NCBI GenBank assembly: GCA_018650085.1
Contig: JABIGQ010000033.1
Location: 1-36,071, forward strand
DNA: 36,071 nt
Direction of reading: 5' to 3'
Origin: Candidatus Magasanikiibacteriota bacterium
Lineage (GTDB): Bacteria; Patescibacteriota; Patescibacteriia; Magasanikbacterales; UBA922
Shown: positions 29,350 to 34,334 of the stretch, piece after piece
How positions within the stretch are numbered: position 1 is the first letter of the stretch
How the letters are laid out: every line of letters starts with the position of its first letter
The notes under the pieces: generated by a model
The model's input: only the letters and a program-made list of their open reading frames with translations
What the model was told of the DNA's origin: nothing
Database searches by the model: none
Made by a program: the position numbers and the translations under genes

Positions 29350-29511
29350 GCTAAGCACATTTTGCTTCTTAAAAACAGCGAACGTGCTTGAAACCAAAAA
29401 ACAAGCTCCCTGTAATTTCGTAAGAACGTAATTACAGGGATAGGAATTGTGATTATAATATGGTATTATAGTCACATACCATAAAAAAGTCTTCTATATG
29501 AAGGCTTTTTT
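29350..29511 (+). repeat. Structured 3' element RepC, copy 1
   Basis: Hairpin 0: AAGCAC/GTGCTT with TTTGCT/AGCGAA and conserved loop CTTCTTAAAAA (29353-29389). Hairpin 1: a 32-base imperfect palindrome beginning CCCTGTAATT (29408-29439). Hairpin 2: TGTGATTATAATA/TATTATAGTCACA (29449-29477). Hairpin 3: AAAAAAG...CTTTTTT terminator. Copies 2 and 3 repeat the order with covarying stems. It follows the MopE-type lipoprotein gene. Confidence 0.85.
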
Positions 29512-29564
29512 ATTCGCTATTTACAACAGAGAATTCCTGTGAGACACAGGGAAAGGTATGTGAG

Positions 29565-30173
29565 ATGTCTTCTAAGAATGATAAAGAGGCAGCAAAGTTT
29601 GCTATCCTTGAGTTTTTGCTAGGTGTATTAAAAAACATACCTCTCATTGGTCCAGTGATAGAAGTGCTACTAGGCATAAAAGAGAGAAAGAAAAACAGTG
29701 ATAATTGTGGAGATGATGGAAATTTCAATGAAATTTCTAAAAAACGATCTGCACTTAACCTGTCATTTAGAGTTGTTTTTTTTGTTATTTTAATCTTTTC
29801 TGTATTTGCTAGAGAGATTGCGGCAGAAATTGTAAAAGATCATCTTTTTAGTTTTTTAAGTAAAATTCCTATCATTTCTAACTTGCTTCCAGAAAAAGAG
29901 AATAACTCTAAAAAGGAAGTGAAAAAAGAGATTGAGAATGTTAGGAAAGAAACGAAAAAAACAAAAGATGTAGTAGGGAAATTAAAAGAACGTACAGATA
30001 ATAGACTTGTGCGCATTGAAAGAGAAGTTCATCAAGTCACTAACAGAGTGGAGGAGGTTGGAGAAACTTATGAAGAATGCATGGAGGTTTGTGTGAAAGA
30101 TTCTAAAATGTATGGCATAAAAAAAGGTGAAGCTAAAACAGGATGCAACGAAGGTTGTAAGGAGTTAAGATAA
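29565..30173 (+). CDS. Membrane protein with C-terminal twin CX3C motif (family A, member 3)
   Basis: 202 residues. The N-terminus is amphipathic with a hydrophobic stretch (FLLGVLKNIPLIGPVIEVLLGI). A transmembrane segment lies at about 66-83 (FRVVFFVILIFSVFA), followed by a Lys-rich coiled coil (KKEVKKEIENVRKETKKTKDVVGKLKERTDNRLVRIEREV) and the tail CMEVC-x17-CNEGC. The tail spacing equals that of member 1. It is AT-rich, unlike members 1 and 2. AAAGG lies upstream, after a small hairpin CCTGTG/CACAGG. Its stop codon abuts the ATG of the next gene, a family B member, reproducing the A-B gene order of unit 2. Function unknown. Confidence 0.75.
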   Translation: MSSKNDKEAAKFAILEFLLGVLKNIPLIGPVIEVLLGIKERKKNSDNCGDDGNFNEISKKRSALNLSFRVVFFVILIFSVFAREIAAEIVKDHLFSFLSKIPIISNLLPEKENNSKKEVKKEIENVRKETKKTKDVVGKLKERTDNRLVRIEREVHQVTNRVEEVGETYEECMEVCVKDSKMYGIKKGEAKTGCNEGCKELR

Positions 30174-30258
30174 ATGAAGATGCTTACAGTTTTTTTGTTC
30201 TCGATCCTTGGTTTCTGCGCTACCATTGAAGCACAGGTAAGACGTGGTGAGTTTACTG
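30157..30258 (+). repeat. Duplicated secretion cassette, copy at 30157 (partner 31340-31441)
   Basis: From G30157 the sequence runs almost identically (about five differences in 102 bases) with that from G31340. It covers the last five codons of the 29565 gene and the signal peptide and first mature residues of the 30174 gene. Similarity stops abruptly after GEFTAVxMG. Confidence 0.9.
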
Positions 30259-31025
30259 CAGTAGAGATGGGAGTAAAGAAAGTATATCTCTTAATGAAAG
30301 ATATGCAAAAACAGATAGTTGTCTTAAAAGAAAAGGGAGTGAATGTTGTTAAGATTAATAAGTCTATTCAACGCATTACGCATTGTCTAAATACCAAAGG
30401 ATGTCAACCTTCTTTAACGATTAGTGCTTGTCAGCGGACGATTAATCGGACTGCTCATAGGTATAGTCGTATTAATTTCAAGCCTCTTATTTTAAAGCTC
30501 GAGCTAATGGCAAAGCAGGCAGAGGTTCGGCATGATGAAATCATCAATCAAGTTGATGAGCATGACAGGGATGTAAAAGAGAAGCTTGATTCAATGGATC
30601 AAAAGTTAGATAAATTGATCAAGCGTGGCATGTCTATCTCGTCTTGTCATTCTGCTGCTATGATATTGTTTACTATGAAAGAAGCCGGTGTTTCAGAAGA
30701 TGGGCTTGATAGTTTTGCTGAAGCAGTAAGAGTTTGTGTAGAAAGGGGGACAATTGATGTAGATAAGATTGTAGAATCTTGTTTAGATCATGGAGTGAAA
30801 TGTTCAATTACTTCAGGTAACGGAAGAAGACACTTTGTAGAACCTAAAAATAGGGGATCTGATGATACTATCTTTAAATGGGGTTTTCCAAGCCTTATTG
30901 GGAGTGGCGGTGCTCTTGCCATTTGTCTAGAACAGGATAATCCTACAACTTCTTGCAGCTCTTTTGTTCTGGTTGGATTAGCTTCTGGTCTTTTATTATC
31001 AGGCATTTGGGAAATTTTTGATTGA
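30174..31025 (+). CDS. Secreted Cys-containing protein with C-terminal hydrophobic hairpin (family B, member 2)
   Basis: 283 residues. Signal peptide MKMLTVFLFSILGFCATIEA, mature start QVRRGEFTAVEMGVKK. The Cys motif CLNTKGCQPSLTISACQ aligns with that of the 25352 gene. A coiled coil follows (HDRDVKEKLDSMDQKLDKLIKRG), then four Cys in a helical region and two C-terminal hydrophobic segments separated by a Cys-bearing polar loop (GSGGALAICLEQDNPTTSCSSFVLVGLASGLLLSGIWEIF). Overall architecture equals 25352, but the gene is AT-rich. GGAG lies in the last codons of the preceding gene. It is followed by RepB, as 25352 is followed by RepA. Confidence 0.75.
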   Translation: MKMLTVFLFSILGFCATIEAQVRRGEFTAVEMGVKKVYLLMKDMQKQIVVLKEKGVNVVKINKSIQRITHCLNTKGCQPSLTISACQRTINRTAHRYSRINFKPLILKLELMAKQAEVRHDEIINQVDEHDRDVKEKLDSMDQKLDKLIKRGMSISSCHSAAMILFTMKEAGVSEDGLDSFAEAVRVCVERGTIDVDKIVESCLDHGVKCSITSGNGRRHFVEPKNRGSDDTIFKWGFPSLIGSGGALAICLEQDNPTTSCSSFVLVGLASGLLLSGIWEIFD

Positions 31026-31048
31026 TATAATAATAGATGGTTCTTTTG

Positions 31049-32914: not shown

Positions 32915-32938
32915 ATTCGCTATTTACAATATAAAAGG

Positions 32939-32987
32939 TTAAGTACGGATACGAATAATTATTTATGATTATTCGTATCCGTACTTA
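32939..32987 (+). other. Perfect 21-pair leader hairpin of unit 6
   Basis: Bases 32939-32959 and 32968-32987 (plus A on the outer side) form an uninterrupted stem with an eight-base loop, 30 bases before the start codon and just after a -10-like TACAAT (about 32924-32929). Confidence 0.8.
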
Positions 32988-33018
32988 ATGAATAGTGCGG
33001 TAAATAAAAGGAGGCATC

Positions 33019-34161
33019 ATGCGTTTAAGCATGTTGTTTGTGATTGTTTCCACCATTGTTTTTTGTACTTCAGCAGGAGCACAGGTGAAGCGAGGGGAGT
33101 TCACTGCCGTAGAAATGGGCACTAAAAAAGCTCATGAAATTCTACGGACGCATAGTAAGAGGATAAATTTAGTTGATTCTGAGATAGAGTCTCTCTCAAG
33201 TAAAGATTTTTCTCAAGCAAACAGTCGTGAAATTGAAAAGCTTCGCGCTGAGTTAAAAAAGCTTAAGAAGATTAATTTACGGTATAGAAGAGTTGCCAAG
33301 AAAAAAGTAGTATTTTCAGAAGATGCACTAGTAGAACTTAAAACAGCCTCAAAAAAGATTGCTGTATTAGAGGAATTAGTGTATCAATTGAGATTAGAAT
33401 TAGAAAAAGCGAATAGAAAAATGGCACTGATTCGCTTGTCTGATTTGAATAAGCTTCTTCGTAAAATTCAACAGGTTTGTGAAGGGGGTAAATGTCCAAA
33501 AAGTTTTCAACAGATTGACAATCTCAGTAAAGCATTTCGTCGTGCCCAATATCGCTCGTCTGAAGCACTTATAAAGAGTTTAGAAAAAAGGCTTCATAGA
33601 GTAGAAGCTTTACCAGAAATCCAAAAACTTCTTTATAAAAAAAAGCATCCTGAATATAAAAAGCCAAGTAGGGATATGGAATACCCCAATTCTGTGTTGA
33701 GTGGGTTGTCTCATACAAAAGAATTTTTATTTGATAGAAGAGTGCAAGCAGGATATTATCTTCTTAGAACACCCTCTGTTGGTAAAAAGCCAAAGGTGTT
33801 TAATCATGGGTTGCTATTATCTTTTGCGCTTCCGTATTTTTCTATGAGCGATATGTTTTCTCTTGGTGGAGAATTGGGGGTGGTTAGTTTAGCAAAAGAT
33901 GAGTTTGCAGGGACGGTCTTTATGGGGGTAACGTATCATCTACCAAGACATGCGAATGCTGTGTTTGGATTAAGATGGATGCAAGGAGCTGATTCGGATG
34001 ATATATTGTGTAATGCATTATTATTAGAATTTCATTTTGAAATATTGAAATTAGATCCGTTAATGTTTTCTTTAAGTAGAGGGAATGGGATAGCGATACT
34101 TCAATCTGGAGATAAATTTTATGCAACGGAAATGGATTTACGTTTTGGTGCTCGGTTTTAA
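33019..34161 (+). CDS. Secreted coiled-coil protein with beta-rich C-terminal domain (type 2, member 2)
   Basis: 380 residues. Signal peptide ends CTSAGA, mature start QVKRGEFTAVEMGTKKA. Start fixed by AAAAGGAGG five bases upstream. A coiled coil at about 60-140 (LKKINLRYRRVAKKKVVFSEDALVELKTASKKIAVLEEL) aligns with the 31357 gene. A short Cys loop (CEGGKCP) and more helix follow, then from about residue 245 beta-rich sequence (GYYLLRTPSV, HGLLLSFALPYF, LGGELGVVSLAKDEFAGTVFMGVTYHL) ending DLRFGARF with terminal Phe. Same layout as 31357 but shorter. AT-rich. Followed by RepC copy 3. Confidence 0.75.
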   Translation: MRLSMLFVIVSTIVFCTSAGAQVKRGEFTAVEMGTKKAHEILRTHSKRINLVDSEIESLSSKDFSQANSREIEKLRAELKKLKKINLRYRRVAKKKVVFSEDALVELKTASKKIAVLEELVYQLRLELEKANRKMALIRLSDLNKLLRKIQQVCEGGKCPKSFQQIDNLSKAFRRAQYRSSEALIKSLEKRLHRVEALPEIQKLLYKKKHPEYKKPSRDMEYPNSVLSGLSHTKEFLFDRRVQAGYYLLRTPSVGKKPKVFNHGLLLSFALPYFSMSDMFSLGGELGVVSLAKDEFAGTVFMGVTYHLPRHANAVFGLRWMQGADSDDILCNALLLEFHFEILKLDPLMFSLSRGNGIAILQSGDKFYATEMDLRFGARF

Positions 34162-34171
34162 TCATGATATA

Positions 34172-34334
34172 AGCTAAGCACATTTTGCTTCTTAAAAACA
34201 GCGAACGTGCTTGAAACCAAAAACAAGCTCCCTGTAATTACGTTCTTACGAAATTACAGGGATAGGAATTGTGATTATAATATTATATTGTAATCAGATA
34301 CAAAAAAAAAGCCTTGAAAAAAGGGCTTTTTTTT
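34172..34334 (+). repeat. Structured 3' element RepC, copy 3, with inverted hairpin 1
   Basis: Nearly identical to copy 1 over hairpin 0 and flanks, but the 32 bases of hairpin 1 (34230-34261) are the exact reverse complement of those in copies 1 and 2, while the sequences on both sides keep their orientation. Hairpin 2 is GATTATAATA/TATTGTAATC. The terminator AAAAAAAAGCC...GGGCTTTTTTTT ends the element and the island. Confidence 0.88.

Follow-up and report, generated by a model that had tools for sequence, protein, structure and literature searches.

Structured and repeated 3' ends of exported-protein genes in a variable surface-protein island of a Candidatus Magasanikiibacteriota bacterium

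Why do several exported-protein genes of one small bacterial genome end in the same long array of hairpins? The question is raised by a stretch of 36,071 nucleotides (hereafter the window), a single contig (JABIGQ010000033.1; G000:C50 in our numbering) of assembly GCA_018650085.1 from a Candidatus Magasanikiibacteriota bacterium, whose genome comprises 1.0 Mb in 64 contigs. The window carries several copies of an extragenic element, RepC, for which an original prediction, made from the letters alone, had claimed selection for RNA structure. We give an evenly balanced chance to the reading that RepC is a structured 3' untranslated region (UTR) with terminator, which would stabilise the mRNAs of exported proteins in a hypervariable surface-protein island.

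Anatomy, distribution and pairing of RepC

RepC is a 160-nt plus-strand element built of four parts in a constant order: hairpin 0, hairpin 1, hairpin 2 and an intrinsic terminator. A covariance model delimits three intact plus-strand copies, at 29352-29514, 32757-32918 and 34175-34335, so that full elements are present at all three of the sites first proposed. Compared with 200 shuffles per copy, the folding energies correspond to z of -8.2, -7.3 and -8.6 for copies 1, 2 and 3, and no shuffle (0/200) was equally stable. By folding, copy 1 consists of hairpin 0 (29352-29390), hairpin 1 (29407-29440, also defined by repeat comparison), hairpin 2 (29448-29476) and a terminator hairpin with its U tract (29481-29513; hairpin and T6 by eye). 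The corresponding parts lie at 32757-32795, 32812-32845 (hairpin 1, again also by repeat comparison), 32853-32880 and 32885-32916 in copy 2, and at 34175-34213, 34229-34262, 34272-34296 and 34303-34334 (with T8) in copy 3. The loop block of hairpin 0, CTTCTTAAAAA, is identical in all three, as had been claimed, and the linker between hairpins 1 and 2 is likewise invariant. Every intact copy ends in a stable hairpin and a U run (T6-T8), the sequence signature of an intrinsic terminator, and stable sense-strand stems occupy the space between stop codon and 3' end, as in mRNA-stabilising 3' structures.

A fourth, diverged copy (23911-23985, plus strand) retains only hairpin 1 (23911-23942, defined by the model and hand-set arms) and hairpin 2 (23949-23985), with no recognisable hairpin 0 or terminator; the claim of one recurring stem order thus holds for the intact copies and fails for this one. 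Its match is weak but credible (21.1 bits, E 0.002 over 104 kb; z of -3.0 for 23815-24010), and it was not listed by the whole-genome covariance-model search, in which 150 of 158 candidates were scored. All four copies follow genes for exported proteins, in agreement with the prediction: signal-peptide or lipoprotein-like N-termini, judged by eye from the translations, are encoded at 22333, 26630, 31357 and 33019.

The element appears confined to this island. In its own genome, blastn retrieved the three RepC copies and, beyond these, only the reverse match of the palindrome to itself, and the covariance model retrieved the three copies (E at most 3.6e-36) together with minus-strand palindrome matches; elsewhere, among the 150 of 158 candidates scored, its best match (E 0.0046) covered the terminator only. 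Across 46 genomes of the family, an E of 0.001 was passed only by the own genome and by G025, whose match (28.5 bits, E 2.3e-4) shows generic hairpins and a terminator in the alignment and is taken as chance or convergence. A model match of E 1e-4 in G009, a genome of the same family (locus L019, 1331-1460, minus strand), consists of GC-rich hairpins outside the island and is taken as generic; blastn in 59 relatives gave one unconvincing 37-nt match to the part spanning hairpin 2 and terminator (G010, E 1e-3). A 22-letter pattern of hairpin 0 matched two unrelated genomes among genome contigs, in the hairpin 0 core only; viral contigs held 1 and 0 exact pattern matches and no covariance-model match. 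At threshold, Rfam found only tmRNA and tRNA in the window and nothing in RepC. The leader families Phe_leader and Thr_leader matched weakly at 29445-29514 and 34271-34335 (25.9 and 23.4 of 55 bits, E 0.81), far under the gathering score; they share the shape of a hairpin followed by a terminator, but no leader peptide or downstream biosynthetic gene is seen at RepC.

The sequences are too few for a formal test of covariation, and the pairing was assessed by re-placing the changes observed between two copies at random, in 2000 sets, and comparing stabilities. Between copies 1 and 2, hairpin 0 differs at 13 of 38 positions and retains its stem; the same 13 changes placed at random gave an equally stable hairpin in 10 of 2000 sets from copy 1 to copy 2 and in 11 of 2000 in the other direction. 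For the terminator, 0-1 of 2000 random placements were equally stable in all six pairwise directions, while hairpin 2 gave a mixed result (0 to 369 of 2000). In the three copies alone, 93.5% of the pair cells are standard and 3 of 52 pairs are changed on both sides. The compensatory change TTTGCT/AGCGAA to TTTACT/AGTGAA described earlier is present (columns 14-29, G-C to A-U), and the double change at the tip of hairpin 2 reads T-A to A-T with the register set by hand. Copy 4 contributes two further double changes in hairpin 1 (A-U to C-G and U-A to G-C, in a hand-set register) and three in hairpin 2 (including G-C to A-U and A-U to G-C, with hand-set arms), one of them at the tip and common to copy 2; a separate MAFFT alignment, in which hairpin 1 is poorly aligned, also shows three double changes in hairpin 2. 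Plus-strand G-U cells number 14 against 3 A-C cells, bearing out the U-G pairs noted originally; in all three copies the plus strand also gives a better fold than the minus strand. Selection therefore probably acts on the plus-strand RNA, in hairpin 0 and the terminator at any rate. Selection for structure beyond a plain terminator, as first claimed, is thus supported by the placement tests, the double changes of copy 4 and the G-U bias.

History of the copies and the same island in relatives

The RepC copies form a mosaic. Copy 1 equals copy 3 in hairpin 0 (38/38) and copy 2 in hairpin 1 (34/34), and an 11-mer directly downstream, GCTATTTACAA, is common to copies 1 and 2 only. In copy 3, hairpin 1 is a perfect 34-nt reverse complement (100%) of 29407-29440 and 32812-32845, an inversion that keeps the stem and reverses the loop, which argues against a sequence-specific role of this loop. 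Flips of palindromes are familiar from the 'small inversion' literature on plastid spacers. Together, the mosaic and the exact inversion indicate that DNA exchange has also shaped RepC. Copy 1 follows a gene that has no relation to the ones ahead of copies 2 and 3, and the GC content of that gene at third codon positions (GC3) is 0.53 compared with 0.28 and 0.27. Local duplication with conversion of the ends, the cargo diverging or being replaced, accounts for the mosaic pattern. The original prediction had overlooked the inversion and this mosaic history, as well as the recurrence of structured 3' ends in the island of relatives described below. A kissing loop between hairpin 0 (UUCUUA) and hairpin 1 (UAAGAA) was also considered; the 6-nt complement of copies 1 and 2 is reduced to 3 nt in copy 3 by the inverted hairpin 1, and the contact is therefore not a required one.

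The island lies between a giant coiled-coil gene and an O-antigen-ligase-like gene. Synteny of the flanking genes extends to both sides of the island in G001, of the same genus, and in G009; in G003, also of the same family, it covers the downstream flanking gene. The exported, repeat-rich or coiled-coil genes that fill the island differ from genome to genome. The island spacers of the relatives are without similarity to RepC beyond chance-level model matches, yet they are strongly structured. The median z of island 3' spacers is -5.4 (n=19) compared with -1.4 (n=33) for other 3' spacers (p 1.7e-5), where the comparison set is drawn from the remaining genes of these stretches and from eight additional stretches of the own genome, and the rows are not independent. 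Within the own genome the difference persists (7 vs 22 rows, p 2.8e-4), and hand-picked genes taken without the spacer-length rule gave -5.1 (n=21) and -2.8 (n=20). Over 18 island spacers, z is lower on the plus than on the minus strand (p 0.005). Apart from those on the hand-picked genes, these statistics, and those on the motif below, use plain longest-open-reading-frame gene calling, which placed two wrong-strand G009 frames among the island rows; both were dropped for a test restricted to the relatives.

G009 carries a duplicated multi-hairpin 3' element of its own after two neighbouring genes (L019:12380-12500 and 13428-13552). Of its 40 predicted pairs, 10 have both partners changed, 3 have one partner changed and all 40 can still form, the structure being predicted from the same two sequences in which the pairs were counted. 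On this predicted fold, the G009 element is an independent case of duplicated, structured and covarying 3' ends, of unrelated sequence, in the same island. Peribacteria are reported to encode large extracellular proteins that differ from strain to strain (PMC4736985); by analogy this fits the variability of the island and is no proof of kinship.

A short motif upstream of island genes

A second kind of element was seen in the island spacers. The octamer CATTACAA occurs in 7 of 19 of them, in four genomes, on the plus strand only (0 on minus), with 14 sites in all across 350 kb of strand positions. The discovery stretches hold 6 upstream sites, which puts it at the top of 420 permutations; twelve other stretches contain 2 sites, and there 27 of 420 permutations score at least as high. 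The exact GTTCATTACAA is found in 33 of 46 family genomes, its reversed control in 35 of 46, and the two differ in where they lie: 23 of 30 loci with GTTCATTACAA are intergenic compared with 2 of 30 for the control (p 1.7e-8), four of the 30 GTTCATTACAA loci being in the genomes of the first sighting of the shorter form (G000, G002, G003 and G009). GTTCATTACAA probably represents a leader (5' UTR) element, since it stands shortly after a TTGACA-type promoter in several loci. In the window, an exact plus-strand GTTCATTACAA lies at 31209-31219, in the spacer before the 462-aa gene that precedes copy 2, and further motif sites lie at 24170-24177 and 26485-26492. The 11-mer GCTATTTACAA that directly follows copies 1 and 2 (29516-29526 and 32919-32929, plus strand) has 8 of the 11 letters of GTTCATTACAA. 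The portions of the literature consulted contain no description of RepC or of GTTCATTACAA, either of which may still be in print.

Further observations concern the same motif. GTTCATTACAA is strand-specific and often upstream of exported or lipoprotein genes (loci L105-L133), as classed by a hydrophobic-N-terminus rule that is crude and missed an evident lipoprotein at L123. On the minus strand of L096 (G002:C11), two near-identical leaders, consisting of a hairpin, GTTCATTACAATTGA and a second hairpin, precede different genes at about 13300 and 10681, a further instance of leader regions that were copied.

Possible functions of RepC and its neighbourhood

What might such 3' ends do? Under the stabilising reading, transcription would end at the last RepC hairpin, and hairpins 0-2, upstream of the terminator, would halt 3'-to-5' decay; termination and blocked decay would therefore give a long-lived message and insulate each unit from the next gene. 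The copies would derive from local duplication and be partly homogenised by gene conversion, while the intervening genes diverge or are replaced. Long-lived messages would plausibly benefit exported surface proteins. A search of the own genome for RNB-domain exonucleases (RNase II/R type) gave no match, while the same search was positive in 11 of 14 control genomes. One polynucleotide phosphorylase (PNPase) is encoded at C43 (TIGR03591, 842 bits vs a cut-off of 525); searches for two families, RNB and PNPase, brought up no other processive 3' exonuclease. PNPase stalls at stable stems. Protection of the mRNA, one of the roles first suggested, would thus fit both the anatomy and this nuclease inventory. 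Localisation of the mRNA found no support in this analysis, nor did release as a small RNA, apart from a weak promoter-like sequence within RepC.

Stabilising hairpins are known from the intercistronic REP sequence of malEF and from pufBA. Terminator-mediated stabilisation of upstream mRNA is under study in PMC11696848. RepC resembles such 3' stem-loops and terminators in its sense-strand stems, its position from stop codon to transcript end, the exported-protein genes and the presence of a PNPase-type exonuclease. It differs from them in placing three additional hairpins, always in the same order, ahead of the terminator, in its invariant hairpin 0 loop, and in occurring as multiple copies in one island, where unrelated arrays replace it in relatives. 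With REP and other prokaryotic palindromic repeats (PMC3733652) it shares extragenic palindromes that partly follow genes, but RepC has only 3-4 copies, all local and none dispersed. The plastid intercistronic expression element (PMC2230500) is similarly a boundary element between operon genes, but RepC has an intrinsic terminator. A protective 3' tail with terminator, the likeliest role of RepC, belongs to a known type of function, cast here in an unusual multi-hairpin, island-specific and fast-changing form.

It is important to note that several results weigh against this interpretation. The three double-change pairs of the three intact copies were also reached by 79 of 500 column shuffles, and covariation in these copies alone is therefore only suggestive; the claim of covarying stems leans more on the change-conditioned tests of hairpin 0 and the terminator and on copy 4, and the three-copy covariation is not clearly above shuffles. 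From copy 1 to copy 3, hairpin 2 is no better than random (369/2000), and gene conversion can hold sequences alike without selection. A consensus terminator scan of the region did not list the RepC terminators. In the related genomes alone the spacer difference is weaker (p 0.022; 10 vs 11 rows), and some housekeeping 3' spacers are as strongly structured, for example those with z of -8.7 (L072) and -7.2 (L016).

RepC could also be one side of a boundary RNA in a packed operon, in which the 3' array, TTACAA and the next 5' hairpin form a processing or insulation cassette that yields stable single-gene mRNAs. With a looser motif, and with the order judged by eye, 11 of the 19 island spacers in the four genomes have array, TTACAA, hairpin and gene in this succession, and the intergenic bias of the exact GTTCATTACAA points the same way; but RepC ends in a seemingly efficient terminator, which would block read-through, the motif, which in several loci lies just after a TTGACA-type promoter, may be a simple leader, and the count of two sites that CATTACAA has outside the discovery stretches is reached by 27 of 420 permuted octamers. 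We regard this possibility as unlikely, if worth keeping in mind, and hold an equally tentative view of its extension to the whole family, according to which cassettes of a lineage-specific and quickly replaced multi-hairpin 3' array, a conserved leader GUUCAUUACAA and a 5' hairpin would cut or insulate transcripts into stable messages of one gene each and let new surface genes slot in between the boundaries. The pairing might instead be kept for DNA reasons, the palindromes serving as borders for recombinational exchange of cassettes. The exact inversion of hairpin 1, the mosaic identities with the common downstream 11-mer, the same flanks around unrelated genes of different GC3 and the different cargo of the syntenic island in G001, G003 and G009 speak for such borders; the excess of G-U over A-C cells, the better plus-strand fold of every intact copy and of the island spacers at large, the single orientation of all copies at 3' ends and the failure to see a recombinase among the island genes make it quite unlikely.

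It is decidedly doubtful that RepC is an ordinary terminator region, copied along with tandem gene duplicates and serving termination alone: all copies do lie within 10.5 kb, neighbouring genes are paralogous (those at 33019 and 30174 match that at 31357) and gene conversion accounts for much of the identity, but the hairpin 0 stem survives 13 changes in 38 positions, the genes preceding copies 2 and 3 are not related to the one that precedes copy 1, and structure recurs in the relatives' island. A small RNA started at an internal promoter (ATTACA-17-TATAAT, at 29431-29459 and 34253-34281) and stopped at the terminator is improbable. These sites of copies 1 and 3 match the sigma-70 consensus in 10 of 12 letters and the linker between hairpins 1 and 2 is invariant, but promoter-like matches in the region (41 vs 34.6 expected) do not exceed those of shuffles, and copy 2, with a weaker hexamer, was not listed. 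Next to no weight is left for a mobile DNA repeat (REP, MITE or similar), for which the palindromic, multi-copy and extragenic character might speak. By blastn and covariance model all copies are on one contig, within the island, and not dispersed in large number; with no other convincing copy in the genome or in 45 other family genomes, RepC is therefore not a mobile repeat, and the covariance-model search that the prediction had named as a check, finding no convincing copies away from the island, removes this alternative unless copies exist outside the assembly.

Should the stabilising reading hold, a small-genome lineage apparently without RNB-type exonucleases would give its fast-changing surface genes long structured 3' ends. 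The sequence of the 3' end would be replaced and its structure renewed, tying mRNA stability to the variation of surface proteins, and metatranscriptomes should hold long-lived, hairpin-ended surface-protein mRNAs. GTTCATTACAA would add another regulatory element of the family that can be tested directly.

The genes next to RepC are all on the plus strand. Copy 1 follows a gene for an 873-aa protein with MopE-type metal-binding and TSP_3 repeats and a lipoprotein-like N-terminus (26630-29251), and copy 4 one for a 493-aa lipoprotein-like protein with TSP_3 repeats (22333-23814). Copies 2 and 3 follow genes for exported proteins of 462 aa (31357-32745) and 380 aa (33019-34161), both without a confident Pfam family; the latter is 39% identical to the former over the N-terminal 200 aa, and a search for relatives of the 462-aa protein found none. 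A PHROGs search of six island proteins gave nothing, and a phage origin was rejected. The four adjoining island genes at 24257-29251 have a GC3 of 0.47-0.53 compared with 0.18-0.33 in the other genes measured, and may be acquired or differently used. Two genes with differing bodies share a near-identical (96%) leader and signal-peptide region, at 30157-30271 and 31340-31454.

The island contains other hairpins as well. A second multi-hairpin 3' element is present in two plus-strand copies, a (26312-26470) and b (31041-31199), 92% identical over 159 nt; in the extended pair (26312-26570 and 31041-31301) this is followed by a 57-nt hairpin of 93% identity, and the whole lies between otherwise dissimilar genes. 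A long plus-strand palindrome with 20-bp arms and a loop of 8 (32940-32987) separates copy 2 from the next gene. Similar long hairpins or palindromes stand just upstream of many island genes, at 22257-22310, 24057-24121, 26514-26570 and 31245-31301, and these upstream hairpins are mirrored in G003 and G009.

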